From Panaeolus papilionaceus (Eukaryota; Basidiomycota; Agaricomycetes; Agaricales), in the NCBI GenBank assembly GCA_015501605.1, contig JADNRZ010000006.1, positions 1,364,001 through 1,428,000 of the forward strand: a stretch of DNA of 64,000 bases, written 5' to 3'. The first letter of the stretch is position 1. Every line of letters starts with the position of its first letter. Below the pieces are notes generated by a model. The model searched no databases. It saw nothing but the letters and a program-made list of their open reading frames with translations, and was not told the origin of the DNA. Shown piece after piece: positions 2,024 through 63,257 of the stretch. A program made the position numbers and the translations under genes.

Positions 2024-4066
2024 TCAAAACCGGGGTCGGAGGCCTTCCAGCCAGTTTCCAAATTCCTCCTTCGATATTGTAATTTTATGTACCACTTTCC
2101 CAGTTTCGCGGTCAGACTGGGGCGTCCATGAATCCCGAAGCCTGTCGTTGACAAACATTTGCGATGAAAAGTTATATCTATGAAATTAAAACAGAGCAAT
2201 GTGTGTTAGAATGCAGTAAAGCCCAAGATTATGTTCGAAAGACATTCAGAAAATTGACGACAGTGCGAATGCGAAAACACCGATTTCAACTCACCGCCCC
2301 ATAATCACGCGTAGTGTGGTTTCCCTTATCCGTACATTAGTGCTGTACTCGCCTCTGCCCATCTTGATAGAAAGGAACAAAGATCGTGTGTGTGGATGCA
2401 ACAGGTTTTGGATAGCTTGTTCAAGAATCTGACGAGAACCTAGTTCATGATGCCCAGCGAGATCAACATTGCTATATTTATTGGCTATGTCTTCCGGTGA
2501 ATGCGATGATAGCAGTCCAGTTGCTGTGAGCGCAAGGCAACATAACATTAACGCTTCAGACAATACGGTTTAAACAGCATTCAATGGAACTGCACCTTTT
2601 CCCCAGTATTTGCAAAGCTTGCGATTGTTTTCTTCTGCAATGACCGTTAGTTCCTGCATCCTCGAGTCTGCCTCACTGACTCCATTCGTTTTTAACTCTT
2701 CTATCAGCAGGTTAGTCCGAGTCTTTTCAGCATGGAGAAGGATAAGCTTTTCGGTACGCGCCGCAGCATCAGCTGGGGGGTCCACGTCGATTTCGCTGGA
2801 GTCGGAACAGGTGTAATCAGATGAGCCTTCACCACCATGCGCTTCGGATTCTTCAGATACAGCTTGATTTTCTGGCATCTCGTCTTCTTGTGTTGATCCT
2901 TCAACATGCCCCTGTGCTGCACACTCATCCTTTTCAGCTTCCTCCATGAGCCTCACTTCATTGTCCAAACGTTTCGCCTCATCTTGTTTCCAATGTGCGT
3001 CCATGTCCGTCTCCTCCTGGGACATTGTTTTGGGACCAGGCCCAGCGAAGTGGTCTTCAATGATCTTCTTCGCAGACAACCTACGAGGGAAAATGCTGGA
3101 AACCCCATTTCCTGACCCTTTATCTCCCCAAAGCATGCCACACGTCCATTTGTCCCTCAGATGTGTTAACAGCAACACCGTTTCTGTGTCGATACCCCGA
3201 GCCAGCATCGTCGCGTGATCGAGAGGTGTGATTGAGATAATAAGTGCCTCGAATTGTTGTTTCATGTATTTCTGGATGTTGTATTTCTGGCAGAGATAAA
3301 GAGCATGGATGGGGTCATGACAAGGCGAATTGGATGTAAAAATGTGGTCAAGGTGAAGGAGAGCGGTTTCTCGGGCCTAAGAGTATTGAAGGAAACATTG
3401 GATAAATGAGACTATTTCGTGGCAGAATTTTAGAAGGCTCACACACCTCTTGGAAACCCCATTTCGTGGCAAGGTCGAGTATACCAAGCCAATGCTCGTC
3501 GCCCGATGGAAAGTCGATACCTTGGCTAGTGCAGAAAGACCAGGTGAGTGACTTTCAAACACCAACTGGGCTCAAACACGTACAACGGATATATTACCCT
3601 CAAAAGGTTGTGGAAATCGACCTTGGAAATGCCCTTTAAAACGATAGGGTGCTGCTCAGAGCTTCCTGCAGCAGGTATTCTCAAGTCGGTGTCTTTGAGT
3701 ATCTGAGGACCAAAAAGCGAGTGAAAGTAGGTCCCGTTATTGAGCAGTCCCCCTTTAGGAACGGAGAATACTCTGTCTTCAGCCTTCAAACCACCGTGAA
3801 TACACCTCAGATCAAGTGCAAAACGTGTATCAACGCACCATGAGGACTACATTCTCGCAGAAATAGATTGGGTCTCGTTCAATCGCAGCCTCCTTCCGCG
3901 TTTCTTGATCCTTGGGCTTCGAGTTTGTGGTGTCCGGATGCACTTCAGATGAAGCATTGGCGGAGTCTATATCCATCTCGAGTTGACTCGAGTCGATTTC
4001 GGAGTATGATAAGTCAATACTGGGTCCCCTGGTAGATGCTTCAGAGATAATACCCGAGCGCGACAT
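2024..4066 (-). CDS. BTB/POZ domain protein, tandem copy A
   Basis: Six exons fit perfectly in phase: 4066-3839, 3783-3584, 3525-3447, 3376-2596, 2523-2295 and 2177-2024, giving 556 residues. The first exon is acidic and low in complexity. Residues about 75-165 form a BTB/POZ domain of the Agaricomycete type: F-S-V-P-K-G-G-L-L-x-N-G-T-Y-F, then H-P-I-V-L-K-G-I-S-K-V-D-F-H, then an L-x-I-L-D-L-A-T-K-W-G-F-like turn across exon 3. A long charged coiled-coil-like part (EEAEKDE) follows, then a C-terminal domain of about 130 residues shared with copies B and C. BTB proteins act as dimerisation or CUL3-adaptor modules; the partner here is unknown. Start chosen at MSRSG because the same start is conserved in copies B and C. 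An in-frame ATG further upstream exists only here. Confidence 0.8.
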
Positions 4067-4439
4067 GAAAACGCGGGAGTAAAGAAAGAACCAGTTACAA
4101 GAGGCGAGCACGTTGTTGTAGCTTGTTGAGTATGAAAGGTGTGATCTCAATGTGGTGGTCACAGGTATGTGGGCGCCTACTTTGGGATTAGCTGTCCAAT
4201 GAAGAGCAGAGTCGTGTTGCGATTACTGTCTCATAATCATGGCGGGTCTGAGAATTATAAAACCCGAATTTAGTATACAGCTTCTTCAATGGTTTCTGAT
4301 TGCAATTAGGTCATAACATATAGACAACAGCAGCATTGGATTCAACAAGATATGGAAATATTTCACATAGAACTATTAACAACGCGAGCAATTGGTCCAA
4401 CTTGTCAGGTCTCCATCCCATGTCCGACTCAAAGGAGGA

Positions 4440-6477
4440 TTAACGCGATCTAAAGCCTTCCAACCAATCTCCAAACGACGCCTCCGGTATCTCGATTTGG
4501 TGTTCAATTTTCCCATTAAAGCGGTCATAAAAGGATATATCGGTAGCATATGGGGTTAGCGGTTTACGATTGGCAAATGTCCGAGAATATAAGCAAAACC
4601 TAGTGAAGAGAAGCAATTAAATGAATGTTAAAAACGATGGTGGAACACAGCAAGTTTAATATGAATATTGAGAAACATGCCAGTGGAAATGTAGAATGAA
4701 TATGAATTTAATTATATAACTCACCGTTTGTCAATATCAGCAATCACGGAAAGTCGTATCTTTACGGGTTGATAGTATTCGCCAGCACCCATGCCAATAG
4801 AAAACTCCAACGATTTTGCACCGGGATGCAACAATCTTTCGATTGCCTGTTCAACCTTCTGACGAGAAATCTGCCCATCGTCACCAACTAGGTTGATCCT
4901 CTTATAATTTTTGACTATGTCGTCCAGCGAATACGACGACAGACCAGTGGCTACAAGCATAACAGTCAATGCTCCAGTCTTAAACGGGACTAAAAGAAAA
5001 TGACACCTTTTTCCCAGTATTTGCAAAGTTTTCGTTCATTCTTTTCCGCAAGGTCCATTAAAGCCTGCAACCTTGAATCGGTCTCATCAACGCCTTGCAA
5101 TTTCAAGTCTTGTATAAGCATGGCGGTCTGATATTTATCACTGTGAAGAAGGATAAGCTTCCCAATACGCGCTTCAGTATCAGCAGGGATATCCACGTCG
5201 ACCTCGCTGATATCGGAGCGCGTGTTGTCCGGTGGGTCCTCGCCACAAGGGGGCTGGAGTTCTTCAGTTGAGGCTTCGTTCTCTTGAGCCACCTCTTTGT
5301 CGTTTGACCATTCGACACCCTCTTCCGCTGCACGCTTCTCCTTCTCAGCTTCCTCCATGCGTCTCACTTCATTATCCAGTCGTTTCGCCTCCTCTTGTTT
5401 GCAATATGCGTCCGCATACTTCTCCTTCTGCGACATTGGTCGAGGACTGAGCCCAGTGAAGTGGTCTTCAATGATCTTCCGCGCAGACAGCCTACGAGGA
5501 AAAATGCTGGAAGCCTCATTTCCTAACGATTTATCTCCCCAAAGCCCCCAAAGCATGCCACACGTCCACTTGTCCCTCAGATGCGTTAACAGAAGCACTG
5601 TTTCAGTGTCGATACCCCGAGCCAGCATCGTCGTGTGATCGAGAGGCGTGATTGAGATAATAAGTGCCTCGAATTGTTGTTTCATATATTTCTGAATGTT
5701 GTATTTCTGGCAGAGAAATAGAGCGTGGATGGGGTCGTGATGAGGTGAATCGGATGTGAAAATATGCTCGAGATGAAGGAGAGCGGTTTCTCGGGCCTGA
5801 AGCGTCGTTGAATGAACGATATTACTTCGTGGTAGGATTTTGGGAGGCTAACACACCTCTTGGAAGCCCCACTTTGTGGCAAGGTCAAGTATACCAAGCC
5901 AGTGCTCGTCGCCCGATGGAAAGTCGATACCTTGGCTATTACAGAAAGACCAGGTGAGTGACTTTCAAACGCCAACTGGGCTCAAACACGTACAACGGGT
6001 ATATCACCCTCAGGAAGTTGTGGAAATGGATCTTTGAAACGCCCTTCAGGATGATAGGGTGCTGCTCAGAGCTTCCTGCAGCGGGTATCGTCGACTCGGT
6101 GTCTTTGGGTATCTGAGGACCAAAAAGCGATTCGAAATAGGTCCCATTGTCGAGTAGTCCTCCTTTTGGAACGGAGAATACTCTGTCTTCAACCTTCAAA
6201 TCAACATTGTTACTCCCTCAGATCCAGGACAAAATGTGTGATAACGTACCATGAGCACTACATTCTCGCAGAAATAGATTGGGTCTCGTTCAATCGCAGC
6301 CTCCTTCCGCATTTCTTGATCCTTGGGCTCCGAGTTCGCGGTGTTCGGATGCAGTTCATATGAGGTGTTGGTGGGGTCCATATCCATCTCAAGTTGACTG
6401 GGGTCGATATCGGAGTACGATAGATTAATACTGGATTCTCGAGTAGATGCTTCCGAAACAATGCCTAAGCGTGACAT
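4440..6477 (-). CDS. BTB/POZ domain protein, tandem copy B
   Basis: Six exons with the same phases as copies A and C: 6477-6250, 6193-5994, 5935-5857, 5796-5007, 4950-4725 and 4599-4440, giving 560 residues. Exons 1-3 match copies A and C exactly in length (228, 200 and 79 bases), and the first exon is almost identical in protein to copy C. The BTB core reads F-S-V-P-K-G-G-L-L-D-N-G-T-Y-F. The middle part is a Glu/Lys/Arg coiled coil, and the tail ends F-G-D-W-L-E-G-F. The exon 4 extension and tail are the most diverged parts. The stop codon is TAA here and TGA in A and C, but at the same position in the alignment, which supports this as the true end. Function beyond protein-protein interaction cannot be read from the sequence. 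Confidence 0.82.
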
Positions 6478-6664
6478 GAAAACGTTGCAACAGCAGTTTG
6501 GGTAAGGTGAGTCAACGAAGTTGTTGCCTTTCAGGGAGTGAGGAAGTGTTTACAGTATTTGCGGGTTCAAGATGAGTGCCTGAGGAAAAGAACATGACGC
6601 GAGGTTGTTGTAACTTGTTGTGAAAGGTGTGATATCAATGAGGCAGTCACGAGTACGTGGGCGT

Positions 6665-6830
6665 CTAACTCATCCAAGGATTCGTCATCCAATCGAGCCC
6701 GAACCTTCCTTTATGCTCTCCATTCCCACTTGAATGTGCAACTGGAGCCCATCCACAGCCTAACCCCCCCATAACAGTATTAGGAGTCTCCTCTTGTAGT
6801 AATATCGTTCGTCGATGTTCTGTGAACTTA
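6665..6830 (-). pseudogene. Stranded copy of the F-box gene 3' end
   Basis: The minus strand encodes T-E-H-R-R-T-I-L-L-Q-E-E followed by M-G-G-L-G-x-G-W-A-P and G-R-F-G-L-D-W. This matches the last 55 or so residues of the F-box protein at 10834-13017. The match begins abruptly upstream of BTB copy B, where the intact F-box gene lies upstream of BTB copy C, so the fragment marks the edge of the duplicated block. It ends early (N-P-W-M-S then stop), while the parent continues R-V-R-R-F-V-G-L-H. Nothing resembling the F-box domain is present nearby. It is a dead fragment. Confidence 0.8.
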
Positions 6831-6859
6831 TCAGGAAAAAATGACATCATCATTAGCAC

Positions 6860-7990
6860 TACTGGTGCCCAGTTGTGATGGTAGGCTGGTAGGATAGTCT
6901 CTTCAATGTAGACGTAGTAGCTGTGCGCCAGTCTACTTCGTCTATTGTAGCCACAATAGATCGAGGCTGTGCTACGGGGTAAATGATACTAGGCCGCTCT
7001 ACCCGGCCTACCATGACTACATAACTTGATGTAGTCAACATAATTTCCCTTCTACGGGGTCAATGCTCTCAGTCATCATGGACACCCTTGATAATGCAAG
7101 AAAAACAATTAATTGAATATAATGGATAATATACATAAACGACAAGTACTACAATGCGAGTCCTAAATACAATTCAGATCACCTTCCTTCTTTCCAAACC
7201 CCTCCACTCCAGATCACAGTTCACCTTAATCTGCATGCAAGGTCTTCATCCACCTGAGCCCATACACACGTCACCCTCACGGACTACAGTTGGGACTGTG
7301 CAACCTTGGTCAAATGTTAAACCAGTAGTACGTTAACAGAAACCAAAAAAAAAAAAAAACAAGGACAAGGGGCACACCATTGCTGAATGACAATGAAAAC
7401 ACCCTTTCAATTGCGTAAAGATATCCCTGAATCACCTTGTGAGTCGGGATAGAAGGTATAAGTGTTAGTTTGATTAACTTACATAAAGCTTTTGGGAGTA
7501 CTGGTGGGGACACTGCAGCCAAAGCAAAATGCAGAATTGAGAGACAAGAAGTGATCATGATGCAATTAGTGAAGAAATGGATTCTGGAAGAGACGGGTCA
7601 CGGAGCGCAATGGAAAATTGGCGTGTGGGGCGTTCGGATACCACGTGATCGCGTCATCGCCCGAAATTCGAGCCTTTCAATTTGCTTTCGAATCTCGATT
7701 ATCCAAGTCTCTCCCAATCGCACCTTGGACACCACAGAAATAACACACCATCATGATAGATCAACACTCTGTCATTCATTTTTTGACTGTATTAGCTATG
7801 CCAAGGCCCAAGGTTCTGTTTCAATCATGTATACGGATGATATGTGTTATGCATCCCGACTATGTAGCACTACCTGGTACACTGATCCACCTACGTTGTG
7901 CTACCGAGTCTACATAGTGTAGCTATTTGTCTTCGACAAGCTGCTGGGACTAAAAGAGTCTACGAAGATTGCCACCGTGACTATAGACAT
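6860..7990. other. Gap between BTB copies: no supported gene
   Basis: I see no convincing gene. The stretch has a perfect 8-base hairpin (GACTACAT AACTTG ATGTAGTC, 7015-7036) and a second imperfect hairpin built on ACTATGTAG and CTACATAGT near 7859-7916, both embedded in GTAG/CTAC-rich sequence that looks like debris of a small DNA transposon. It also holds a 15-base A run at 7347-7361. A short minus-strand frame (7310-7558) starts with a hydrophobic leader but has nothing else to support it. Confidence 0.4.
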
Positions 7991-7994
7991 CAGT

Positions 7995-8316
7995 AGATTT
8001 GGTGGCAACTACGAGTATTAATCCGACCAGGGATGAAAAAGACTGAAAAAGAAATAACATTTCTGCTACCATTTGTGGTTTATGTGTTTTTCAATAACTC
8101 TGTTTGGGTACAGACTGCGTTATACTTAATTAATGCAAGGGGCAGCAGGGCACCGTTTACCAACGTCTGACTAACCTTTACCAACACCTCCTGAAGCTTC
8201 CTTGATGATTGCAGAATGGGATTGAGAAACAAAATACAGGCAACAGAGAGAAACAGGAGTATTGTAAGTAACAAGACATGGAAGGACTTGATAACGGATA
8301 GAGCTCTAAACGACAC
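7995..8316 (-). CDS. Membrane-segment exons of a repeated small gene (copy C)
   Basis: The minus strand encodes a hydrophobic helix (VLLLTILLFLSVACILFL) followed by QSSRKLQEVLVK. After an intron with a GTTAGT donor and TTTTTCAG acceptor comes S-L-V-G-L-I-L-V-V-A and a stop shortly after. It is the counterpart of 1587-1862. Unlike copy A, the second-helix donor (GTAAGT in A) has become GTAGTT, and no downstream soluble domain like that at 537-1399 is found, so this copy appears truncated. An ATG is available at 8316, but a TAG acceptor just inside it suggests an internal exon. Confidence 0.35.
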
Positions 8317-8470
8317 AAGCGATCAGCCTAACTCAGGGTCTCAAAACCCACTGTTCACCATGACTTGGTTGGAGTTGGTTCAACAGAGGGCACTACTAAC
8401 CCTGATGACACTGCAATACCCAGCGTCGATCAGATAATGTCTGTATCTGGTGTGAAAGGCTTTTCCAGAC

Positions 8471-10479
8471 TCAAAACCGCAATCGGACACTCTCCAACCA
8501 ATTTCTAAACCCCTGTCCCTCGAGCGCGATTTTGCGTTCAACTCTCCCAGTTGCGCTGTTGACCGACCCACAACGTTGATCGTTGATAAATACATCTGAA
8601 GGCAAACCATACCTAGCGAGCCAAAGCAGGGAAATAAATGTTAGAAGAAAGTAAAGCACATGGGACCCGAAGATGAGAAGCAATGACATGGCGAAGGAAT
8701 GGAAGATGAACGAAACTCACTGCCCCAGAATGCGAACTATAGTGGCTTCCCGTATCTGTACATTGACCTTGCTGTCGCTTTTACCAATCTTGATGGAAAG
8801 TTTTAAGGATTTCGCATGCGGATGTAACAGGCTCTGGATGGCCTGTTCAATCATCTGACTAGAGCCCAGTTCATGGTGGCCAACAAGATCAATACTCTTA
8901 TTATTATTGGCTATGTCTTCGAGTGAATGCGATGACGGTAGCCCAGTTACTGTTGGCGTAAAACAGCGTCATATCCAGGCTTCAGACAAGATCATTTTAA
9001 ATAGCATTCAATAGGACTGCACCTTTTTCCCAGTATTTGCAGAGTTTCTGGTCGTTTTTTTCCGCGATGCCCATTAGTTCCTGAATCCTCGAGTCTGCCT
9101 CGCTGACGCCATTCGCCTTCAACTCTTGTATCAGCAAGTCAGCCCGACTCTTTTCGGCGTGGAGACGAATAAGCTTCCCAATACGCGCTTCAGTATCAGC
9201 AGGGATATCCATGTCGATTTCGCTATTAGTGTCTTCCAATCGGTCTTCAGAACAGGAGGGTTCAGGTTCTTCGGAAGTAGCTTCGTTGTCTTGTGCTTCT
9301 GGTGTTTCGTTCGACCCTTCGGAGTCCTCTTCAGCTGCACACTCCTCCTTTTCAGCTTCCTCCATGCGCCGAACTTCATTATCCAATCGTTTCACCTCAT
9401 CTTGTTTCCAATGCGCGTCCGTATCCTTCTCCTCCTGCGACATCTGTCGGGGATCAAGTCCAGCGAAGTGGTCTTCAACGATCCTCCTCGCAGACAGCCT
9501 ACGAGGAAAAGTGGTGGAGGCCCTGATTCCTTTATCTCCCCAAAGCATGCCACATGTCCACCTATCCCTCAGATGCGTCAACAGCAGCACAGTTTCCGTG
9601 TCGAGACCCCGAGCCAGCATCGTCGCGTGATCGAGAGGCGTGATGGAGACAATAAGTGCCTCGAATTGTTGTTTTATGTACTTCTGGATGTTGTATTTCT
9701 GGCAAAGATAAAGAGCGTGAATGGGGTCGTGATGAGGTGAATTGGATGTGAAAATATGTCCAAGGTGAAGGAGGGCTGTTTCTCGGGCCTAAGAGTATTG
9801 CAGGAAATGTTGAATAAACGAGACTACTTCGTGGCAGAATTTTAGAAGGCTCACACACCTCTTGGAAACCCCATTTCGTGGCGAGGTCGAGTATACCGAG
9901 CCAGTGCTCGTCACCCGATGGGACATCGATGCCTTGGCTAGAGCAGCGAGGTCAGCTAAGTGACTTTCAAACGCGAAGTGGGCTCAAACACATACAACGG
10001 GTATATCACCCTCAGGAAGTTGTGGAAATGGACCTTTGAAACGCCCTTCAGGACGATAGGGTGCTGCTCAGAGCTCCCTGCAGCCGGTATTTTCGAGTCG
10101 GTGTCTTTGCGTATCTGACAACCAAAAAGCGATTGGAAATAGGTCCCATTGTCGAGTAGTCCTCCTTTAGGAACGGAGAACACTCTGTCCTCGACCTTCA
10201 AATCAACATTATTACTCCCTCAGATCCAGGACAAAACGTGTGATAACGCACCATGAGCACCACATTCTCGCAGAAATAGATTGGGTCTCGTTCAATCGCA
10301 GCCTCCTTCCGCATTTCTTGATCCTTGGGCTCCGAGTTCGCGGTGTTCGGATGCAGTTCATATGAGGTGTTGGTGGGGTCCATATCCATCTCAAGTTGAC
10401 TGGGGTCGATATCGGAGTACGATAGATTAATACTGGATTCTCGAGTAGATGCTTCCGAAACAATGCCTAAGCGTGACAT
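8471..10479 (-). CDS. BTB/POZ domain protein, tandem copy C
   Basis: Six exons: 10479-10252, 10195-9996, 9937-9859, 9788-9023, 8949-8721 and 8612-8471, giving 547 residues with every phase consistent. Exon 2 carries the BTB start (V-E-D-R-V-F-S-V-P-K-G-G-L-L-D-N). Exon 3 carries W-L-G-I-L-D-L-A-T-K-W-G-F-Q-E, the typical end of fungal BTB domains. Exon 4 adds helices (LYLCQKYNIQKYIKQQFEAL) and a long acidic coiled-coil region. Exons 5-6 give a conserved C-terminal domain ending N-W-L-E-S-V-R-L-R-F. It lies immediately downstream of the F-box gene on the same strand, which is likely the ancestral arrangement of this cluster. BTB plus coiled coil suggests an oligomeric adaptor; no enzymatic motif is visible. 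Confidence 0.83.
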
Positions 10480-10833
10480 GAAAACGTTGCAACAGCAGTT
10501 TGGGCAAGGTGAGTCAAAGAAGATGTTGCCTTTCAGGGAGTGAGGAAGTGTTTATAGTATGTTCTGATTCAAGATGAGTGGCTGAAGGAAAAGAACACGA
10601 GGTAAGGTTGTTGTAACTTGTTATGATGAAAGGTTTGGTTCCACAATCAATGAGTCGGTCACGAGTACGTGGGCGCCTACTTCGAGGTTAAGATTATCAA
10701 CACTACATTTACCCAACATTGTAACAGTTCAAACTCTCTTCATACTCTAGATACCAACTACTTATATCATACAAATGTATCCAAATTAAATGAAAATTGT
10801 CCCATAGATCATAAATAATGAACAACCAATGTC

Positions 10834-39464: not shown

Positions 39465-40863
39465 CTACTTCTGAAACTTGATAAGCCTCTTTGCCTTCTG
39501 TTTTGTCTTGTCGACCATCTGCCGCACCTTGCCTTTGCGTACCTCAGGCCCAGGCTCGGGCGTATCAAATAAATAATGAAAGGACACCACACTGCTTGAT
39601 CTAAGAGATGGCATCTCTTTGGCCTCCGAGGTACTCACCCCGGGTGGAGGAGCACCAAATTCTTCCACTTCATCCAATGCAACCCTAAGGTCCTTTTCTG
39701 CCTCCGCTTTATCCTGTAAAAGTATGTTTCTAAGGGTTACATTCCGCTGAGTGAAGGGGTCTCTGAGATCCTCCTCTATGAAATTCAGTCGAAGCTGCAT
39801 TTGTCCGATTCGATGGAGAAGGTTCCTGTACAGCGGGGGCACAAATGGGGCCTGGTGGAAATTCCTCTTGTATTTGTTCCTTTCAAATCTTGAAGCGTCA
39901 TACGCCCATGTTGCCAGAGAATCATCCACAATGCTCAGGGCGGACGATTCCGTGTTTTCGAATTTCACGACACGAGTACCTTCGTCGATGAATTTCTGTT
40001 CGGATATAGAATGAGCTCAGGTCAAGGATCATGCATTGATCAGGCCCCAACCTTCCAATGTTCGTCTTGAAGCTGCCGATATCGTTTCTCGGCTTTCTCT
40101 TTCTGCTCTTCAGTCCAAAGAAGGTCCCACATAGTGGTTACGACGGCAATATTTTTAGCCGCTTGTTCGCCAATTAATGTCTTGAAAATGTCAAGGTTTT
40201 GTGTCTTGCTCCCTGACATCCTGATGTCTGTGATTCTGTCAAAGTAAAGGATACGGTCGAAGGCAGATTTCCTCCTGAATGCCTAGATAAGATTCAGAAC
40301 ATATCCCAACCGACAGGCGTACCGGTCTTCCAACCACTTATACAGCATCTTTGTTATCTTCATCTCGGATATTTTGCGATCTGCAAAGCCAGGCGTGTCG
40401 ACAATGTAGATGTTTCCCTCAAAGTTGACATCCTCCAGGCCATCAAGATGATACGAGACAATTTGTTGGGTAACACCTTCCAGTTGATCCTTGGATATGC
40501 CTAAGGAATTACCACCGGGAAGCCTCTCAATGAACTATAAGTTATGAAATTTATTTAACATTCCTCTCGGCTAAATTAGGGTATCTAAAAGCTCACATTG
40601 CTCTTTCCTACTCCTGTAGGACCCATGAGTCTAATTCATTAGAATCAGCTCGATTTCTGGATGTAAGATGATGAAACACCACACAGAATTACGCAGCTAT
40701 CGGTATCGTTGAGACCTTCGTCATCGTCCGCCACATATTTCATGCATACATGACCTGAAATCTCAATTGTTTTGTACTGCTTTTTTGAGGTCGACGGGTC
40801 TGTGCTTTCTTGAGATGCTGCATCATCGGTGGACTCGTATGAAGAGCCTGTTGAGTCAGGCAT
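39465..40863 (-). CDS. AIG1-like P-loop GTPase, paralogue I
   Basis: Five or so exons: 40863-40685, 40630-40597, 40534 onward, and a last exon ending at 39465. After an acidic Ser/Thr leader, a tiny exon encodes the P-loop L-M-G-P-T-G-V-G-K-S-N, continued as F-I-E-R-L-P-G. The G3 motif is I-V-D-T-P-G-F-A-D-R-K-I-S-E-M-K. A G4-like motif is V-V-T-T-M-W-D-L-L. The C-terminal third is helical (L-Q-D-K-A-E-A-E-K-D-L) and ends basic (K-T-K-Q-K-A-K-R-L-I-K). Fungal members of this group resemble AIG1/GIMAP GTPases, which in animals and plants work in immunity. What they do in fungi is not established. A paralogue with the same architecture lies at 50565-52023. Confidence 0.8.
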
Positions 40864-41108
40864 GACGTTGAATGGTGTTATATGTTGAGTGAACCGTTAG
40901 AGGCCATTGGCTCGCTCGACACAAGCTTTGTCCTAATCAAGCACACGTGTTAGTGGGACCAATATCTGTTTGTCATTTTTAGTCGACCATCGCGGAGATG
41001 ACCAAGAAATTGTAAAAATCCAGACAAACTCAAGGTGAGAATTAGGTAGTGGAACAACATCGATTCAGAATAAATTCTAATGTGCATTCCTTTTGCCTAA
41101 TAAGAAGA

Positions 41109-42783
41109 TTTAAATGGGTGTCATTGTCACTGTGAATCGCTCAGTGCAATCAGGTTACGGTGAATCTGGTCCGGGTATGATGACGGGGAAATCGGACGAG
41201 GAACCTTGGACTTGTCGCTGAAGCCAGTCGCGGTGCATTACAATCAGTTCAATGTCCAAGGCGATATCCACTGTGTGTTCGAGCTTCAGCTCAAGGTCGA
41301 AGTCCCTCGGTAGTCCATAACTCGAGAATAAGTGAGACCATTTTCGTCCAAATCGCCATGCCACGACATCTGGCGCAGGTAAGGAGATGTTGATGGTTGA
41401 CTGACTCCTCACTTTCAAACCAAAACCATGTTCAACAAGCCCATCGCCGTTCCTTGTTAGGGTCTCCATAATGTGGATGGGTGACGACCTGTCTTCGTCA
41501 TGTCTGGGATGTATTCAACTCGGATGGTGAAGCTGGAGAGACGCAGGGGAGGTGAGACCAATGGCGAACACACATTAGGATATGTTTGGTGTCTTTTCGG
41601 TGACGAGGCTCAGATTAGCAAGATAGCATTCATTTCAATCCACTCGTGATTTGGGAGGCGATAAAATGGATGTTGCTTCCATGCGTAGCCACCGTCCCGT
41701 CGTTCATCATCACACGGTATATGAACCTTCGGGCTTGGCACTTGAATATGCGGGCGTCGGGCGTTCATATCCTTTATCAAATCGCGCGTTACAACTTCCA
41801 AACTCGAGCCTTCGGGAAAGGTGCCCTTGTGCTGTTGTTCAATACGACGAAGCTGTGATGTACCAACGGATATGTTAACGGGATTGTCAATAGAGAAGAA
41901 GGAGAAGGTTACATTTTTTCCACGATCATGAAAAGTGCCTGTAGCGTTAATCCAGCAACGGACATTTGTTTTCTGGACCTCCTGGGATAAATCAACACCC
42001 TCCGTTTCCAATAATGAACGAAATGTAGGAAACCAGGTTGTGAATAAGTCGGACGTCAGCACGCACTCCTCTAAGCTACGAAAAATATTCGAAGCCAGAG
42101 TTTGAACAGAAACATAGCTGACCGTCGCTTCTCCACTGTATTAGGAAACAAAGGTGGCACAAAATAATAATATTGGGGCATACAGTTTTTGGATGACGAG
42201 ACTTACAAAGTTGTCGAACTAAGATTTTGTAACAGTGGCGCAAACAGCTGAAAAATGCTTTATATTGGCCAGGGGATAGGTGATTTGGTGTACTCACTGT
42301 GTCTAGCGCCGTTTTCACCTCTCCATAGATCTTACGGGATTCCACAATATTTTCGTAGCCAAAGACGAGTGTTTTCATTATTACTGCAAGGTTCTGGAGG
42401 CTTTGAGAGGACAAACCACTATTCAAATATCGCATCAGTGTGTCAACATCGACGGCGACAGTTGATGCATAATAAAATGCCCCGTAGCTGCAAGAAACAG
42501 CCTGAATAAGGGACGAAAGCTGTGTCTTCTGCTCACTGGTGAAAGACGAACTGGGATAATTCGATTAGAGTTGGTGCTGGCAATCAAACACATAACTTGC
42601 GAAATATCCACCGTTTGTAAGTAAAGGTGCGAGGTCCAACCGTCCAACACCTCGAAGCACCAGGCGCCTGTTGTAGAAACTTCCCACGCTGGCGGTTCTG
42701 CTGAACGGTCTTGAGGCCAATTCTGAATCCGGGCCTTTTTTTACTACATCCATATCTAGCTGACTCATGGATTCCACTGGCAT
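41109..42783 (-). pseudogene. Unknown partner gene X, copy I (apparently frameshifted)
   Basis: Exons carry, in order: a leader with R-P-F-S-R-T-A-S-V-G-S-F-Y-N-R-R; a helical part (K-T-L-V-F-G-Y-E-N-I-V-E-S-R-K-I-Y); a middle domain (L-L-E-T-E-G-V-D-L-S-Q-E, then V-T-F-S-F-F); and an end domain (W-R-F-G-R-K-W-S-H-L-F-S-S-Y-G-L-P-R-D-F-D-L). I do not recognise the family; the leader faintly recalls the start of SNTX-like proteins, which is weak evidence. Compared with copy II, one base is missing between about 41,470 and 41,510, and a CAA codon has become TAA at 41,155, cutting the last 15 or so residues. The gene is either decayed or spliced in a way I cannot see. It lies upstream of GTPase I on the same strand. 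Confidence 0.55.
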
Positions 42784-43670: not shown

Positions 43671-43976
43671 GAGAATCTGGACAGCCGCAGCCTATTCCGA
43701 GTCTGATGTGTGGATAGTTGTTTTTTTTTCGGCAATCCTTCGCAACTCAGTTCGAGAACATTTGGCCTAGTGGAATGTCATTATGTCGCGATATACCAAA
43801 TTTAACAGCTCTCTTCAGAAGGCTAGCTCCAAGCAACAGAGCACCATTTCGTATATAATTCTCACAACACACAAGATCAGGGATCACGTGTCTGAGTACA
43901 TACACAGTGTACGTTGTCCGAGTCAATAGTCATTGACTCATTGTCTAACGTTTTATTGTCTTTTCCCATACTTTTA

Positions 43977-44884
43977 GATTCACCCCTCTATTGTGGGCCA
44001 CCCAAATTACTTCAAGAGTAACCGAGCGCAAGTTAAAGAGCTCATGGATGGAGCCGGCGACATGGGGGACTCCTTACGTTGCCCTGTCTCTTCCCCGACT
44101 GGCCTATGGATTTTATGAAAGCTGCAGTCACCGCTAACATTCTCGAGGTCCAGCAACTTAGGTCGCAATCTCTTCGCTCGCGCAGTTTGGTCCGCCACCT
44201 GCAAAATCGAAATGCGACCAACACAGCTTCAAACCGCCCACAAGAAACTTACCCTGCCGGTGCACCCGTGTTGATGTCAACTGGAGCTTCTCATACGTAC
44301 CTGGATACAGTGCCCAGGCTGACGCTCTCTCTCTGGAGGCATCATATCCCCCCAATACAAAGGCGGACACGACGGACATCAAGTACACAGTCAAAGACAC
44401 TCAGGCTTATCAGTCCGGGTTTACCATCGACAGCATCCAGAAGAAGGCCATTGAGCTGACCGTTTCCCGCAATCTCTTGTTCCATCGCATAGTCCCCATG
44501 CAGAAAATGGCGCTGCAGAAAGATGCTCCGTGGACTGTAACAGAGAACGGAGCTCTTCGAAAGGGCGTTGAGGCCTTGGAGCTCATGGCAATGGTCAGGT
44601 TGCACGACCCGTCGGAGGAAGAGATTTATACAGTGGTGAGTGTTCAGGCTGATTTCGAGGCTCAAATCCGTAGGAGTACTCAGCAATCGTGGAACTCGAT
44701 TGGGGCTGTCTTTGCAAAGGGGTTCCGTCGCCTAATAATCTCCCAGTGTACGGCCTTGCATGATATCCAGAAGACTGTCCCTCCTGACATTACGACAGAG
44801 CTGGTGACCGTCCAAGGTTCAAGTTTCGAACGTTACTACGAAGGACATTTTTCGCTTTATTCGCTCTGGTGTATCTTCTTGTGA
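43977..44884 (+). pseudogene. Decayed unknown gene next to the lectin repeat
   Basis: A plus-strand frame encodes N-Y-F-K-S-N-R-A-Q-V-K-E-L-M-D-G-A-G-D-M and stops near 44,118. A second frame from about 44,250 encodes V-D-V-N-W-S-F-S-Y-V-P-G-Y-S-A-Q-A, then a long clean stretch (T-D-I-K-Y-T-V-K-D-T, A-L-R-K-G-V-E-A-L-E-L-M) to a stop at 44,884. Amino-acid use is ordinary and the second part is over 200 codons, so this was probably a real gene now broken near its middle. No family recognised. Its stop lies only 26 bases before the left arm of the lectin inverted repeat, so the duplication edge may have removed its tail. Confidence 0.4.
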
Positions 44885-45162
44885 TGTCACTAAACGGGAG
44901 GGAGCTTCGGTAACGAAGCCAGTTCTGCTTATCTGCTCCAGCCACTATAGACCTGAGCAGTTGTATTGAATAGGAGCACATAAGGACTGATGCTCGAAAC
45001 CAGATACGTAGATATTACACAGATTTGATATGATTTGTAAATACACTTGATCCAGCGCCGCCCCTCTGCGAATATTCTCGACATTCGAAAACCCCTTTAT
45101 AACAGAATAGAAATCAGCTTCGATGCCAAATGAAACGCAAAATGGTGAAAAAGGCGCTTACC

Positions 45163-45591
45163 CTATCCAATAATGATGTCGCAGTTGATGTTCTGCGTGC
45201 CAGAACCTGCGCAGTTGACAGAAACGGAACGACCCTGGCTGTTCTTGACGCTGTATTGCGTGAGCACCTTCTCGCGCTGTGCTGCGCTTGCCGTTCCTGC
45301 CTTGTAGTAATCGGGGTGGAGGGCAACACCAGTTTGGGTGTTGCTCAAGTTGGGCTGGATGTCGATCCATGATTTGTAGTTGTGGACTCCGAGAGCGATG
45401 AGGAAGGCTTCGCTATCGGAGGCAAGGCGGAGCGTGCCAGAGGTACCACTGCCGCCCAAGGTGAGAACATGCACATCATTCGATTTGTTCCATTTCGCTC
45501 CGTTGGCGAAGTACCAGGCAGTACTCTCAACAGCACTGAAGAAGGCGTTGGGGTTGGTCTGGTAGACACGGGCGGTGATTTGGTATGACAT
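45163..45591 (-). CDS. Fungal fruit-body lectin, left copy
   Basis: 142 residues in one exon, the usual size of the Agaricus bisporus lectin/XCL family (about 142-144). Family marks: R-V-Y-Q-T-N-P-N-A-F-F near the start, W-Y-F-A-N-G-A-K-W, then the strongly conserved V-L-T-L-G-G-S-G-T-S-G-T-L-R, F-L-I-A-L-G-V-H-N-Y-K, the REK-L-T-like Q-R-E-K-V-L-T-Q-Y-S-V, G-R-S-V-S-V and the final I-I-I-G. Members bind Galbeta1-3GalNAc and GlcNAc-type sugars and are cytosolic, with a proposed role against nematodes and insects. There is no signal peptide, as expected. The protein is identical to the right copy. A TATA box and a 5' leader intron lie upstream within the repeat arm. Confidence 0.95.
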   Translation of the reverse strand: MSYQITARVYQTNPNAFFSAVESTAWYFANGAKWNKSNDVHVLTLGGSGTSGTLRLASDSEAFLIALGVHNYKSWIDIQPNLSNTQTGVALHPDYYKAGTASAAQREKVLTQYSVKNSQGRSVSVNCAGSGTQNINCDIIIG

Positions 45592-45719
45592 GGTAACAAG
45601 TGAGTCTGTAGACTGAATCCAATTGCTGTTAGTTTGAGTGTGGTAGTAGATGTGTGAGAGAGGACTTACTTCTGAAGGAGGTTGCTTCGAGTCTGTTGAG
45701 TTAGGTATTTCGTTCGTGC

Positions 45720-45728
45720 TTTTATATA
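45720..45728 (-). promoter_or_regulatory. TATA box of left lectin gene
   Basis: TATATAAAA on the minus strand, about 130 bases before the ATG, inside the repeat arm and so duplicated exactly at the right copy. Between it and the ATG is a likely 44-base leader intron (45626-45669, GTAAGT to CTAACAG). Confidence 0.6.
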
Positions 45729-46204
45729 TTTCGTGCTGCTCATTTCTATCTCTTTTGGGATGAATATGACCCGATTCTCGATACGGCTTCTTGCATCAGC
45801 GTGGAATTGCGGCGCTAGTTTACGATATCACTAGTGCTCTTTCTAGGTCGTTCACTTATCTAAATCTATGCCTTCAAAGCTCGGATCATACTGCTGCACA
45901 TTTTTGTAACAGCTATTCAACTAGCTTTGCTCTTTGGTCACATATTCTCACTCCGGGACTCGAATTAAGAACGAAAGATATGGCAAGTTGGGCCACCCAA
46001 TAGACCACCCATAGCACTGATCAGCCATAGAGAGAGAACATCAGGCCTTCCGAGTCTGCAGAAAGCAATGTCGAGTTTTGATCAGCGCTTGAGCAAGTTT
46101 TGGTTAAGCTCAAATCTATTACTCGTTTCTAATGGTATACGTAACTTCGCTTCTTTATATTTCAATTCAGTTGGTAGCACAGCTTGTTACCCTTGATTCC
46201 TTAC

Positions 46205-47122
46205 ATACCACCACAAAGCATGGAAAATTCAAATGAGAACGGCTCAGCGATTGACATGTTGCTCCAGCCTGTATTACTCGGAGCTGTGTTCGGACCTCGA
46301 GGCATTACTTTTACATTTGTACTTGGTGGGACATTATCGAGTCGATGTCAAATGTCAGTTCTTGATATGGCGTGGAAACGCGGCGCTTATTATTCGCTCC
46401 AACAGCTTCTTTGGGAACAGTCTGGGATTTGCAAATTATTTCACTGTTCACTATTCAGTGACCCAATTGTAACAGGTTCTGATCCGATTGGTACCCTGTA
46501 ATTCGTTTACATCCCTTTGTTCAGAGCTCGTGGTTGGTGAATGTACACTTACTTTTGATGAGGGTATTTTGGACATCTGTTTACTGCTAAGTGCAAAACG
46601 ATAGACGTTACGCTCCTATATAGTGACATTCGGACCTCGAAAACTAGCTAGATCCAATTCAAATTTGACGCGATTTCCACCCTAGTGTACCAAGCACCTG
46701 ACGCAGCCGTTTACAATGGTTCGCTGCCCTCATTTATAACAAAAAATGTTTCCCATACCATAAACCGACACTTCTCTACAATCTTATGAAGTTTTGGGAG
46801 GAATCACCACATGTAATGAGTGACGGGGCATTCGAAAGCCAGGGTGATATGCATCAGCCATCAACGTAGGTCACAATTGTGAATGTCTGGGGTGACCTAT
46901 CATTTTGTAATTAGCTGTATATCTTTGCAATCTGCTCATTCAGAGGGCCATGTAAGATGAGTGGTCAGCTTATATGCTGTCCTGGACATTTGGTACCATA
47001 GTGGCAACAACTGATGCAGAGTTGTTCGCAAAAGGGAAAGCCGAACTGCATGTGGGTCTACAGCGTGAATCGAAGCATTGAAAAGTCGGAAGCAGAATTG
47101 TCACTGTCAGTCAATTGTCGGA
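46205..47122. other. Spacer between the inverted repeat arms
   Basis: About 0.92 kb of unique sequence separating the two diverging lectin promoters. Short frames occur (for example 46,184-46,501) but have no domain, splice logic or paralogue. No transposon ends were found. Confidence 0.5.
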
Positions 47123-47598
47123 GTAAGGAATCAAAGGTAACAAGCTGTGCTACCAACTGAATTGAAATGTAAAGAAGCGAAATTACATATACCATTAGAA
47201 ACAAGTAATGAATTTGAGCTTGACCAAAACTTGCTTGAGCACTGATCAAAACTCGACATTGCTTTCTGCAGACTCGGAAGGCCTGATGTTCTCTCTCTAT
47301 GGCTGATCAGTGCTATGGGTGGTCTATTGGGTGGCCCAACTTGCCATATCTTTCGTTCTTAATTCGAGTCCCGGAGTGAGAATATGTGACCAAAGAGCAA
47401 AGCTAGTTGAATAGCTGTTACAAAAATGTGCAGCAGTATGATCCGAGCTTTGAAGGCATAGATTTAGATAAGTGAACGACCTAGAAAGAGCACTAGTGAT
47501 ATCGTAAACTAGCGCCGCAATTCCACGCTGATGCAAGAAGCCGTATCGAGAATCGGGTCATATTCATCCCAAAAGAGATAGAAATGAGCAGCACGAAA

Positions 47599-47607
47599 TA
47601 TATAAAA
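47599..47607 (+). promoter_or_regulatory. TATA box of right lectin gene
   Basis: TATATAAAA 129 bases before the ATG at 47,736. A GTAAGT donor at 47,658 and an AACTAACAG acceptor ending at 47,701 suggest a 44-base leader intron. Confidence 0.6.
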
Positions 47608-47735
47608 GCACGAACGAAATACCTAACTCAACAGACTCGAAGCAACCTCCTTCAGAAGTAAGTCCTCTCTCACACATCTACTACCACACTCAAACTAACA
47701 GCAATTGGATTCAGTCTACAGACTCACTTGTTACC

Positions 47736-48164
47736 ATGTCATACCAAATCACCGCCCGTGTCTACCAGACCAACCCCAACGCCTTCTTCAGTGCTGTTGA
47801 GAGTACTGCCTGGTACTTCGCCAACGGAGCGAAATGGAACAAATCGAATGATGTGCATGTTCTCACCTTGGGCGGCAGTGGTACCTCTGGCACGCTCCGC
47901 CTTGCCTCCGATAGCGAAGCCTTCCTCATCGCTCTCGGAGTCCACAACTACAAATCATGGATCGACATCCAGCCCAACTTGAGCAACACCCAAACTGGTG
48001 TTGCCCTCCACCCCGATTACTACAAGGCAGGAACGGCAAGCGCAGCACAGCGCGAGAAGGTGCTCACGCAATACAGCGTCAAGAACAGCCAGGGTCGTTC
48101 CGTTTCTGTCAACTGCGCAGGTTCTGGCACGCAGAACATCAACTGCGACATCATTATTGGATAG
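47736..48164 (+). CDS. Fungal fruit-body lectin, right copy
   Basis: Identical in protein to 45163-45591 and read outward from the repeat centre. The start ATG at 47,736 (MSYQITARVY) matches the family start, so no upstream extension is needed. The stop TAG at 48,162-48,164 is followed at once by GGTAAGC, so a 3' leader-type intron may follow. Two identical intact genes imply either a very recent duplication or ongoing conversion between arms. Higher gene dosage of an abundant defence or storage protein is a reasonable benefit. Upstream regulation is shared to at least 1 kb. Confidence 0.95.
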   Translation: MSYQITARVYQTNPNAFFSAVESTAWYFANGAKWNKSNDVHVLTLGGSGTSGTLRLASDSEAFLIALGVHNYKSWIDIQPNLSNTQTGVALHPDYYKAGTASAAQREKVLTQYSVKNSQGRSVSVNCAGSGTQNINCDIIIG

Positions 48165-48666
48165 GGTAAGCGCCTTTTTCACCATTTTGCGTTTCATTTG
48201 GCATCGAAGCTGATTTCTATTCTGTTATAAAGGGGTTTTCGAATGTCGAGAATATTCGCAGAGGGGCGGCGCTGGATCAAGTGTATTTACAAATCATATC
48301 AAATCTGTGTAATATCTACGTATCTGGTTTCGAGCATCAGTCCTTATGTGCTCCTATTCAATACAACTGCTCAGGACTATAGTGGCTGGAGCAGATAAGC
48401 AGAACTGGCTTCGTTACTGGAGTCCCCTCTTTTTTAGTAACATATGAAGATGCGAGGACGCAAGAGGCCAGTTGTACATGCATTAAAGCAAAGCATTTGA
48501 GAGGCCTCGACGACAACAGATAACAACTCGAACTTTGCTCGAACTTATCGATTCGGTAATCTATTCGAAGTAAGTAGTTCGAAAAAATTAGGGATGGCGA
48601 ACGGATGGCTTTGATTTAAGGTCAAATCTAATTAGAACCCCTGTTGGGTATGTTGGCTAGGAAGAA

Positions 48667-50143
48667 TTAAATGAGTGTCATTATAATTGTGAATTCTTCA
48701 GTGTAGTCAGGTTGCGCTGAATCTGGTCCGGGGATGATGGCGCGGAAGTCCGACGAGTAAGCATGGACTTGTGGCTGAAGCCATTTGCGATGCGTTACAA
48801 TCTGTTCAACGTCAAAGACGATATGCACCGTGTGTTCGAGCTTCAACTCAAGGTCGAAGTCTCTCGGTAGTCCGTACTTCGAAAATAATTGAGCCCACTT
48901 TCGTCCAAATCGCCATTCTACGACATCTGGTGAAAAAGAGGAGATGCTGATGGTTGGCTTACTTCGCACTCTGAAACGAAATCCACGTTCAACAAGCTCG
49001 TCAGCATTCCTTGGTAGAGTCTCCATAATCCGAATAGGTGAAGCCTCGTCTTCCTCGTGTCTTGAATGATATTTAATTTGAAAGTAGACCGCGAGCCGCA
49101 GGAGATGCGAGAGCGATGGCGAACAGACAGTTGGACATGTTTGGTGGCTCTTTGGTGACGAGGGTCAAACTTGCATGATAAAATTTGTTTTCAATCCACT
49201 TAGGATTGGAGCGGCCATAAAACCTATGATACTTTGTTGCATAGCCCGCGTGCCCTTGTTCATCATCAGATGGTACACGAACCTTGGGGGTTGGCACTTC
49301 AACATGCGGGCGTCGGACGTTCATATCCTCTATCAGGTCGTGCGTTACAGCTGGAAAACTTGAACCTGCTGGAAGTAAACCCTTGTGTTCCTGTTTAAGA
49401 CGGCGGAGGGTTGATAAAAAGGCGAATTAACGGAACTGCCAGGACAGAGCAAAAAGGATAGGATTACATTTTCACCTTGCACACGGAAGGTGCTTGCGGT
49501 GTCGATCCAGAGATGAACAACTCTTTGGTGTGAGTCCTGGGATAAATCAATATTTTTCGTTTCTAGTAGTGAACCAAATTTGGAAAACCAGGGTATGAAT
49601 GAGTTGGCCAAACGTATGCACTCATCCAAACAAGGATAGATGTTGGAAGACAGAGCTTGAACAGAAACGTAGCCGATAATCGCTTCCCTCATGTATCAGA
49701 AATACGGGCAACGCAAATAATATCTATGCTCATGGTTTTCGGTGTCATTCTTCGCGGACGAGATTTACAAAGTAGTCGCGCCAAGGTCGCGTATAGCTGG
49801 CCCGAACATCTAAAAATGCTTCGTGTTAGCCCCGCAAAATGGGATATAGCCTGCTCACCGTTTCTAGCGATGTTTTTACCTCGCTATAAACCCTACAAGC
49901 ATCAACAATACTTTCATAGCCAAAGATGAGTGTTTCCATTATTGTCGTGAAACTCTCGAGTTTGTAAGAGGATAAGTGACTGTCCCAATAATGCATCAAT
50001 CTGTCGACCTTGCGGGCGGCAGATGATGCATCGTAAAAGACCCTGTAGCTACGAGAAACGGCCTGAAGAAAGCTTGACAGCTGTACCTTTAGTTGCCTGG
50101 CAAACAATAAACTGAAATACTCAATTAGGATTGGTGCTCGCAA
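48667..50143 (-). pseudogene. Unknown partner gene X, copy II (frameshifted)
   Basis: Parallel to copy I: helical part (M-E-T-L-I-F-G-Y-E-S-I-V-D-A-C-R-V-Y), middle domain (L-L-E-T-K-N-I-D-L-S-Q-D, then V-I-L-S-F-L-L) and end domain (W-R-F-G-R-K-W-A-Q-L-F-S-K-Y-G-L-P-R-D-F-D). Here the last exon is full length, ending E-F-T-I-I-M-T-L-I at 48,667. In the middle, near 49,390-49,420, the frame used before (S-P-F-Y-Q-P) and the one used after (R-R-L-K-Q-E-H-K-G) differ by one base, where copy I reads straight through. The 5' exon does not resemble that of copy I. So each copy is broken, but at a different place. It lies downstream of GTPase II on the same strand. Confidence 0.55.
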
Positions 50144-50564
50144 TAAGCGTCAATCACAACTTGTATGTGTGATAAATCATCGATATCTTTATTGGTGCAC
50201 CATGAGGGCCTACGATTGCCTCAGAGAACATGATCCAGTGAAAACAATAGCAAAGGGGTGTAGGAATAAAGTATTTTGCAGGTTTAGGTCTGCCTTGAGG
50301 CTGTCAATACATCGAGGCGCTGTTGGCAGTCCGGGTAGGTCAGAGTTCTGGTCAACAAGTCGTCCATCTTGAAGTTCGAATCGCCTCCATGTGGGGAATT
50401 CCCACACACGTCATGTTGGTCAAGAAGGCAATTCCCTTGAATTCATGAATAACAGTATGTCCTCTCAACTCAAACCATACTCAGGACTAAAGCCACAATT
50501 AATTGTGATAAATTCATCTACGAAATATTGCAGTGTATACAAATAGAGAGAATGTCGGGATGAT

Positions 50565-52023
50565 TTAACCTTTGTTGCGGGATTTGAAACGAAACAGGTA
50601 GTTCGCCTTCTGCCTCGTTTTGTCGTACATTGTTCGTAGCTTGCTTCTGCGGGTGCTGATTGGGGGTTGGGATTCAGGTTGGGATTCAGGAAACAGGTAA
50701 TGGAATGAAACAAAGCTGGACGTCCCCTCTATGTTCAGGTGTTCGACATCTGCTACAAAACCAGGTGGCGGTGGGCCAAAGTCCTCCACTTCCCTTAATG
50801 CACCTCGAAGGTCTCCCTCTACCTCTGCCTTGTCCTGCAAGAATATATCCCTAAGGATCGCATTTTTCTGGGTTGAAGGCTGGATCAGATCCTGCTCGAT
50901 ATACTGCAGGCTGCTTTGGAGTTGTGAAACTCGATCGAGAAGGTTTTTGTAAAGGGGGGTCGCATAGGGTGCTGTGCGTAAGCTTTTTCTGTGTGCGTTC
51001 CTCTCGAAGTTCGATGCGGTATAAGACCATGTCGCCATAGAATTGTCCAGAATACCCAAAGCTGAGGATTTGGAATTGGCAAACTTCACGATGCGAGCTC
51101 CTTGGTCTATGAACTCCTATCCGACATGTTAGAATGCTCTCGGAAGATGGGCGTGTAGCCAAACGGGCGAAAGCCACTTACCTTCCAATGCTGATCTTGC
51201 AACTGTTGGTAACGTTTTTCAGCCTTAATTTTCTGTCCTTCATTCCAAAGCAGATCCCACATCGTAGTTACGACAGTGATATTTTCCGCGGTGTTCTCAC
51301 TGGTCAATGCCTTGAACAGGTCAAGATTTCGTCCCTTGCTCCCTGACATCCTGGTATCTGTAATCCTGTCGAAGTACAGGACTCGGTCGAAGCCTGATTT
51401 CTCTCTACAAAACATTTCATTTTGACGGTTCATTTAGAAAGCATGTAACATACCGGTCAGCTAGCCACGCTTGTACCATTTTGAGGATCTTCATTTCAGA
51501 TATTTTTCGATCTGCGAAGCCAGGTGTGTCGATCAAGTATATGTGACCCTCATCATCGACATCCTCTACGTTGACCACACGGTATGTCGTAATGTCTCTT
51601 GTTACGCTTTCCAACTGATCTTTCGAGATGTCTAGAGATTCGTCACCAGACAGGCATTCAATGAACTAGGGAGTTGATTCCCTAATGTATTAGTACGAGT
51701 ATGTCGGAAAGAAGACAGGGCTTACATTGCTCTTCCCTACTCCTGTAGATCCCAGAAGCCTGAAAGAAAGCAGTCAGAAAGATGCGCTGAGGATCAATTA
51801 AAGAGAACGCGCACAGGATTGTGTAGCTGTCATAATTCGCGGCGCCGTCATCGTCATCTGGAACACGCTCAACTGAAACGTCGCCTGTGACCTTGATTTC
51901 CTTATACACATCATCGACATCTTTTGAAGTTATTGATGACGCGCCAGTCAGCTCTCGTAGCAATTGAAGGTTCTCTGTGGCTTTTCCATCGCCATCAGAG
52001 ACATCCAACACTGGGTGTGCCAT
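50565..52023 (-). CDS. AIG1-like P-loop GTPase, paralogue II
   Basis: Same exon plan as paralogue I. The start at 52,023 (MAHPVLDVSDGDG) is preferred, although the frame stays open another 67 codons upstream. P-loop: L-L-G-S-T-G-V-G-K-S-N, in a tiny exon as in paralogue I. Next exon: F-I-E-C-L-S-G-D-E-S-L. G3: L-I-D-T-P-G-F-A-D-R-K-I-S-E-M-K. G4-like: V-V-T-T-M-W-D-L-L. The helical C-terminus carries D-K-A-E-V-E-G-D-L-R and a basic end (F-R-F-K-S-R-N-K-G). All frames are intact, so the GTPase survives while its neighbour gene X is damaged. Likely role: nucleotide-dependent switch or polymerising GTPase; partner unknown. Confidence 0.8.
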
Positions 52024-62303: not shown

Positions 62304-62427
62304 TGTTGTAATTCGGTATTTCCGTATTAGGTAGTCACCCCAGAATCCCCAAATTGGGGTATTCTGTTACATAATATACTAAGTTGAACTTCACTCTTAC
62401 CATCGTGTATCGTCGTATATCACAAAA
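62304..62427 (+). repeat. Left LTR of the miniature element
   Basis: 124 bases beginning TGTTGTAATTCGG and ending ATATCACAAAA. Identical at every base to 63,134-63,257. Confidence 0.92.
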
Positions 62428-63133: not shown

Positions 63134-63257
63134 TGTTGTAATTCGGTATTTCCGTATTAGGTAGTCACCCCAGAATCCCCAAATTGGGGTATTCTGTTAC
63201 ATAATATACTAAGTTGAACTTCACTCTTACCATCGTGTATCGTCGTATATCACAAAA
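63134..63257 (+). repeat. Right LTR of the miniature element
   Basis: Exact copy of 62,304-62,427. The following AATAA is the target duplication. Confidence 0.92.

Follow-up and report, generated by a model that had tools for sequence, protein, structure and literature searches.

The stretch of DNA considered here, referred to throughout as the window, comprises 64,000 nucleotides of the Panaeolus papilionaceus genome (GCA_015501605.1, contig JADNRZ010000006.1, positions 1,364,001 to 1,428,000), and lies on the contig labelled C56 among the 71 contigs, 50.9 Mb in total, that were searched. It contains a large inverted repeat, or palindrome, in which each arm carries a lectin gene. The arms were delimited by self-comparison as 44877–46204 (arm A, at the start of the spacer, with the minus strand as gene-sense strand) and 47123–48450 (arm B, plus strand). 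They are 1328 nt each, 98% complementary without a single indel, and enclose a spacer of 918 nt (46205–47122). The 23 mismatches over the 1328 nt are clustered, with 11 at 44881–44909, one at 44951 and 11 at 46086–46192. Between the last two groups the homogenised tract of arm A (44952–46085) and its counterpart in arm B (47242–48375) show no mismatch in 1134 bp, a perfect inverted repeat far beyond chance that spans the lectin gene, its leader intron, the TATA box and the 3′ flank. A sequence-only reading of this DNA had described mirror arms free of indels at 44910–46204 and 47123–48417, and the base-by-base comparison agrees, with 12 differences per 1295 bp; the frayed outer arm end at 44881–44909 lies beyond those coordinates.

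The gene of arm A (45163–45591, minus strand) has an intron-free coding part of 142 codons plus stop, and that of arm B occupies 47736–48164 on the plus strand, stop included. The two open reading frames (ORFs) are the same in protein and in DNA, which confirms the first description of a pair of identical fruit-body lectin genes, each reading outward in its arm. The protein scores 158.6 bits against the PF07367 (FB_lectin) profile, for which the cut-off is 25, and covers profile positions 1–138 of 140. By the curated cut-off, and over the whole domain, its sequence places it in the FB_lectin family, sugar binding being only predicted. Seven distinct sequences with solved lectin structures are matched, among them nearly full-length matches to the lectins of Sclerotium rolfsii (2ofc, E 9.8e-40) and Boletus edulis (3qds, E 2.9e-31). 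Upstream of the coding part, a 64-nt leader intron (GTAAGT...CTACAG) is predicted from the sequence at 47658–47721 on the plus strand, mirrored at 45606–45669. A TATATAA motif follows at 47599–47605 (plus strand), 137 bp upstream of the right-hand ATG and mirrored at 45722–45728, and then a candidate promoter element, AGCGCCGCAATTCCA, at 47511–47525 (plus strand; mirrored at 45802–45816).

Searching the genome contigs with PF07367 gave at least 20 matches, grouped into 11 places (two same-strand genes on C11, 4.4 kb apart, were counted as one). At six of these places a leftward match is followed by a rightward one: the window, C16, C45, C13 at 107/108 kb, C13 at 135/137 kb, and C12, where the left partner is broken. 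The head-to-head arrangement is a recurrent layout of the FB lectin family in this genome, partly by descent. The broken C12 copy (2920–3551 of C12:36001–46000) is split, with its 3′ part on the plus strand and its 5′ part on the minus strand, as if an inversion had occurred inside the gene. The first C13 pair (4470–6043 of C13:103001–113000) is degenerate, as its left copy lacks an ATG at the aligned start and its right copy matches in two reading frames.

Two further places share the architecture of the window pair. The C16 locus has kept both lectin genes, in arms of 1213 nt that differ at three positions around a spacer of 575 nt. The second place, referred to as C56b, is on the contig of the window, about 83 kb ahead of the window pair. 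It has one lectin gene, whose protein is identical to that of the window and whose DNA is 97.4% identical to it. Its spacer is homologous too, and of the inner B arm it keeps 93 bp, a stub that matches the A arm of this locus at 92%. The block common to the three loci corresponds at most to window positions 44884–49305, and the distant flanks are not alike; within the 22 kb around C16 or C56b no other match was found outside the block, except for a 92-bp match of C56b to 41658–41749. The latter is the left-hand member of a duplication, part of which also falls within the shared block. Between loci, 155 of 1205 positions differ for window and C16 (with 240 gap columns) and 125 of 1398 for window and C56b (with 107 gap columns); one gap column is spurious, as arm A of the window lacked its outermost base in the alignment. 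Divergence among the three loci thus amounts to 9–13% of positions.

The spacers reveal how the loci are related. The window spacer is homologous to those of C16 and C56b, and its two ends are unlike each other, the A end being recognisable in C56b and C16 and the B end in the window, C56b and C16. In C16 and C56b, moreover, the points at which the arms become nearly identical coincide to within a few bases. The three loci have a common origin and, because the spacer and each of its distinct ends recur between loci, the inverted pair existed before it spread. As judged from these alignments, the window pair is not a recent duplication, and descends from an ancestral inverted pair that was dispersed as a unit.

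The window and C56b spacers also have features of their own. Homology of arm B to the arms elsewhere begins further in than the self-comparison indicates, at 47014, and the innermost ancestral arm part (47014–47122) is found on both sides in C16 and C56b. In the window its A-side counterpart is lacking, apparently because about 232 bp have been deleted at 46204/46205; the missing bases are present in C56b and have counterparts in C16. An insert resembling a miniature inverted-repeat transposable element (46582–46919) has imperfect terminal inverted repeats and six other relatives in the genome, at 73–77%. It is absent from the C16 and C56b spacers, and the window spacer has gained it after dispersal. 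The C56b spacer holds a different insert of about 650 bp (about 6639–7291 of C56:1321001–1331000). With its strong terminal inverted repeats (GGGGGACAAT...) and its short target duplication, this insert looks like a DNA transposon relic.

The four arms of the window and C16 were aligned and the sites at which they vary were classified. At 134 sites the arms split two against two by locus and at none do they split by arm; 11 sites show other patterns, nine of them at the inner end. The by-locus sites are distributed over all compartments counted (inner end 13, upstream 38, leader 14, coding 27, 3′ side 42), so that 107 of the 134 fall outside the coding part. The innermost and outermost compartments were left out of the count, as one of the loci lacks them. 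Within the common stretch no gap separates the two arms of one locus. The arms at both loci have been homogenised, and protein selection cannot explain the identity of the 1134-bp tract since 705 bp of it are non-coding. Outside the homogenised tract, the inner end of arm A (46086–46204) differs from arm B at 11 of 119 positions, all 11 differences (46086–46192) being transitions. Transitions make up 90 of the 125 differences between window and C56b and 103 of the 155 between window and C16, which renders an all-transition set slightly unusual at most. At five of the nine sites of 46086–46192 that can be compared with another locus, arm A alone deviates.

Taken with the common origin of the loci, the 134:0 pattern argues for exchange between the arms of each locus, and the exchange of sequence that had been suggested for the window arms is thereby corroborated. 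The window and C16 pairs would have been homogenised by copying between their own arms, most simply by gene conversion. The same 134:0 pattern would be expected had a single lectin gene spread first, each copy being doubled later by a separate recent inverted duplication, as this too gives near-identical arms within loci and divergence between them. Such an origin is contradicted by the spacer and both asymmetric ends that the loci have in common, by the identical starting place of arm near-identity in C16 and C56b, and by the stub of a second arm retained at C56b. We rejected it on account of the shared A and B spacer ends and the C56b stub, and regard it as very improbable. Replication template switching, in place of recombinational gene conversion, could also have equalised the arms. 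In yeast, template switching is reported to yield both arm homogenisation and spacer inversion (PMC8604942, from the excerpts available), and a spacer flip is likely here (see below). In the yeast cases of those excerpts the repeats are short and only a few bases separate the arms, as opposed to a tract of 1.1 kb here, and template switching is in our view an unlikely substitute, although sequence alone cannot distinguish it from conversion.

We consider it highly probable that an ancestral lectin pair spread as a unit, came to occupy at least three places in the genome, and had its arms made identical again by gene conversion within each locus. The ancestor would have been an outward-reading pair, its inverted repeat having arms of about 1.2–1.4 kb with a spacer of about 0.6 kb between them. 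After the unit had been copied, conversion at each place would have re-equalised the promoter, the leader intron, the coding sequence and the 3′ flank of the two arms, with divergence accumulating in the spacers and between the loci. A double dose of one lectin, produced from two genes with the same promoter, would be the likely outcome. Several points weigh against this account. It is based on a single genome, and for the identity of the window arms it depends on the assembly. Taken alone, the 134:0 count cannot separate conversion from an independent inverted duplication at each locus, and what separates the two is solely the shared spacer and arm ends. At C56b the second gene with the remainder of its arm may have been lost, or may never have been copied. 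Finally, conversion between loci, given the identical proteins of window and C56b and their gene DNA at 97.4%, is not separated from purifying selection.

The very high identity of the arms could also be produced by the assembly itself, through a fold-back or collapse that makes the second window copy an artefact. This we reject as extremely improbable. In the window self-comparison the 918-bp spacer is asymmetric and the flanks do not mirror each other. The inner arm ends carry 11 clustered differences, and the sister locus on C16 is supported by a protein record. A genome of P. papilionaceus, strain CIRM-BRFM 715, has been reported (PMC8480192, in the part available). The best protein match (P0001) is a 173-aa record of this species. 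All 173 residues of P0001 are reproduced from C16 by one exon antisense to the left arm (3885–4033 of C16:363001–373000) and one exon in sense orientation in the right arm (5998–6370). Two adjacent exon joins fit, one with GT–AG borders and the other, one base further, giving the same protein without them. Since its exons fall antisense and sense in opposite arms, a public assembly contains the C16 inverted arrangement, on a contig of 803,873 bp (797,500 bp here). The record supports the C16 pair and not the window pair itself. The gene model behind it is probably an annotation error caused by the palindrome; if transcribed, it would give a hairpin RNA.

Silencing by the inverted repeat, which the sequence-only reading had also raised, finds no support in the anatomy of the pair. 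The genes read outward, so that neither ordinary transcript spans both arms, and hairpin-RNA silencing from ordinary transcripts was rejected for this reason. A hairpin would arise only from read-through, such as that implied by the public gene model of the C16 pair.

The position of the outer flanks suggests a further rearrangement. In the window, flank F (48451–48624) lies beside arm B. Its homologue in C16 also adjoins the outer end of arm B, with about 70% likeness as far as about 48540, but in C56b it adjoins the outer end of arm A. The junction of arm and flank is continuous in both orders. As an addition to dispersal and conversion, we somewhat favour inversion of the spacer, by exchange between arms, in the C56b lineage. 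It is the simplest account of a flank that swaps sides with its junctions unbroken, and the C56b piece matching the outermost part of the common block (49214–49305, beside arm B, in duplicated sequence that has no known protein family) does so at 88%, as compared with 71% for 41658–41749. The inversion would be needless if flank F had once stood on both sides and then been lost from one at each locus. It is also weakened by the shortness of flank F in C16, where it is only about 70% alike, and by the left-hand copy of the duplicated stretch, at 41658–41749 in direct orientation. The conversion pattern and the probable flip of the C56b spacer together bear out the recombination between arms that had been anticipated.

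It had further been proposed that the head-to-head pair shares one central control region. In a bidirectional promoter pair, less than about 1 kb separates the two start sites, and one promoter serves both genes. The TATA boxes of the two window genes (45722–45728 and 47599–47605) are about 1.9 kb apart, a distance between TATA positions and not start sites, and both arms are equipped with a TATA box and a leader; a compact bidirectional promoter was rejected on this distance. In favour of the proposal, a third copy of the promoter element lies in the spacer (46373–46387, minus strand), in an orientation that fits the leftward gene, and resembles the promoter of the left lectin gene of C45. 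Aligned with one another, the three spacers agree at 330 of the 431 columns without gaps and contain an invariant run of 33 bases, a length reached by 41 of 5000 shuffles; the element inside this run is also present in the arm promoters. The form TGGAANNGCGGCGCT has nine matches in the 50.9 Mb, eight of them within the window, C16 and C56b loci, and its reversed control has none. This enrichment is no independent proof of function because the three loci are copies of one another. In 12 other lectin upstream regions, the left gene of C45 matches with two mismatches, six match only with four, and five do not match. The idea of a single compact promoter thus falls away, and from the sequence conservation a control role of the spacer element is plausible.

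Two other head-to-head pairs provide a contrast. The second C13 pair (135/137 kb) and the C12 pair are copies of each other in opposite contig orientation, and over 1158 aligned positions their intergenic regions agree at 86%. Likeness between the two genes of this C13 pair amounts to 87.6% and is confined to the coding sequence: the upstream regions are about 92% alike across the two loci and have no match within a pair. By the same kind of site count, 27 sites split by lineage, three by locus and one in the third way, with only one 324-nt piece of the broken C12 copy compared. By this count the C13 and C12 pairs are not homogenised, the opposite pattern to that of the window and C16. A head-to-head layout alone does not homogenise a pair, and these two groups of pairs suggest that long matching arms are needed.

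The C45 pair may be informative about the origin of the palindrome. It consists of dissimilar lectin genes arranged head to head, with 61% DNA identity. Its right gene is the closest to the palindrome genes (71%), although tree support for this grouping is only 0.74, and its leader is common to the palindrome genes (score 47; best of 200 shuffles 31). The promoter of its left gene matches the window spacer at 34 of 39 bases in the corresponding orientation (score 53; best of 200 shuffles 29), and scores 48 and 53 against the C16 and C56b spacers. As a tentative addition to the dispersal and conversion of the pair, and one whose probability we place a little below even, an inverted copy of the right gene may have replaced the left gene of a C45-like pair. 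The promoter element of the overwritten gene would then persist in the spacer, in keeping with the 34-of-39-base match in the right orientation, and the right gene of C45 would be expected to resemble the palindrome genes and share their leader, as it does. The modest tree support tells against this origin, as does a version of the same element in the arms (two mismatches to the left C45 gene), which may point to a shared, ancient promoter motif. The latter point is qualified by the score of the arm upstream region against C45 in that orientation, which at 24 is not above the best of 200 shuffles (30). It is doubtful, if conceivable, that the whole forms a single system in which a dispersing lectin unit was born by overwriting, the leftover promoter element acts as shared control, and exchange both equalises the arms and flips the spacer. 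If so, spacer orientation should vary between strains.

Further repeats surround the pair. Same-strand copies flank the palindrome in swapped order, 41101–42584 with 48658–50144 (73%) and 39640–40435 with 50761–51566 (67%), and a fragment of the first duplicate is the part of the block common to C56b mentioned above. Pfam gave no family for five ORF stretches neighbouring the pair, including three from these duplicates. The left flank of the window pair (43900–44876) has no other copy in the genome, and two flank searches indicated no carrier mobile element, flanks further out not having been searched. Elsewhere in the window, 1597–10679 holds several long direct repeats (76–82% identity over 1.7–2.5 kb), which point to tandem duplication of a gene or element. 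At 62304–62427 and 63134–63257, 830 bp apart, are the two copies of a perfect 124-bp direct repeat, possibly representing the ends of a mobile element.

Arm-to-arm gene conversion has reportedly been described by Rozen and colleagues in 2003 for palindromes of the human and ape Y chromosomes, which are said to be much larger than the window pair and, unlike it, lie on a sex chromosome. Closer parallels exist among linked genes. As in other concerted inverted pairs, the window genes are mirror images at one locus, their duplication is older than the split of the loci, and the copies are more alike within than across loci, non-coding sequence included. In the sections available of PMC3924832, Drosophila Hsp70Aa/Hsp70Ab and Amy-p/Amy-d are reported as mirror-image linked pairs evolving in concert by ectopic gene conversion, and thus resemble the window pair in both orientation and within-pair homogenisation. 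According to the same sections, homogenisation of the D. pseudoobscura amylase genes affects coding regions only, whereas here the promoter, intron and 3′ flank are included. The Drosophila pairs also belong to another kingdom and another gene family, and in the present case it is dispersed loci of one genome that provide the comparison. Inverted divergent pairs of Caenorhabditis (F44E5.4/F44E5.5) are described, in the portion available of PMC1803023, as better conserved in structure than in sequence, with near-identical arms in each genome; they tend to duplicate as a unit, and gene conversion has been proposed. The window and C16 pairs are like them in near-identical arms and in duplication as a unit. 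The Caenorhabditis pattern is reported there across species, whereas here it concerns paralogous loci of one genome, with a single-gene locus (C56b) and a class of non-homogenised pairs as internal contrasts. Our literature searches found no study combining fungal fruit body lectins with gene conversion, which implies no wider claim on what is in print, and no study of mirror-image lectin genes among the matches listed. The match for Panaeolus papilionaceus with lectin concerns another subject by its title, and that for gene conversion, inverted duplication and basidiomycete concerns Penicillium.

The window pair is a real and well-supported case, and a well-documented fungal addition to the known concerted inverted gene pairs. 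One genome offers a natural experiment in which identical pairs with long arms (the window and C16) occur together with a single gene and a stub (C56b) and with pairs alike in coding sequence only that are not homogenised (C13 and C12). The dissimilar C45 pair may resemble what preceded the palindrome. A part in defence against animals that feed on fungi is reported for fruit-body lectins, and the lectin of the window may have such a role. The set of loci would allow one to ask how much flanking homology is required for concerted evolution, and whether the dose of a fruit-body lectin is maintained.

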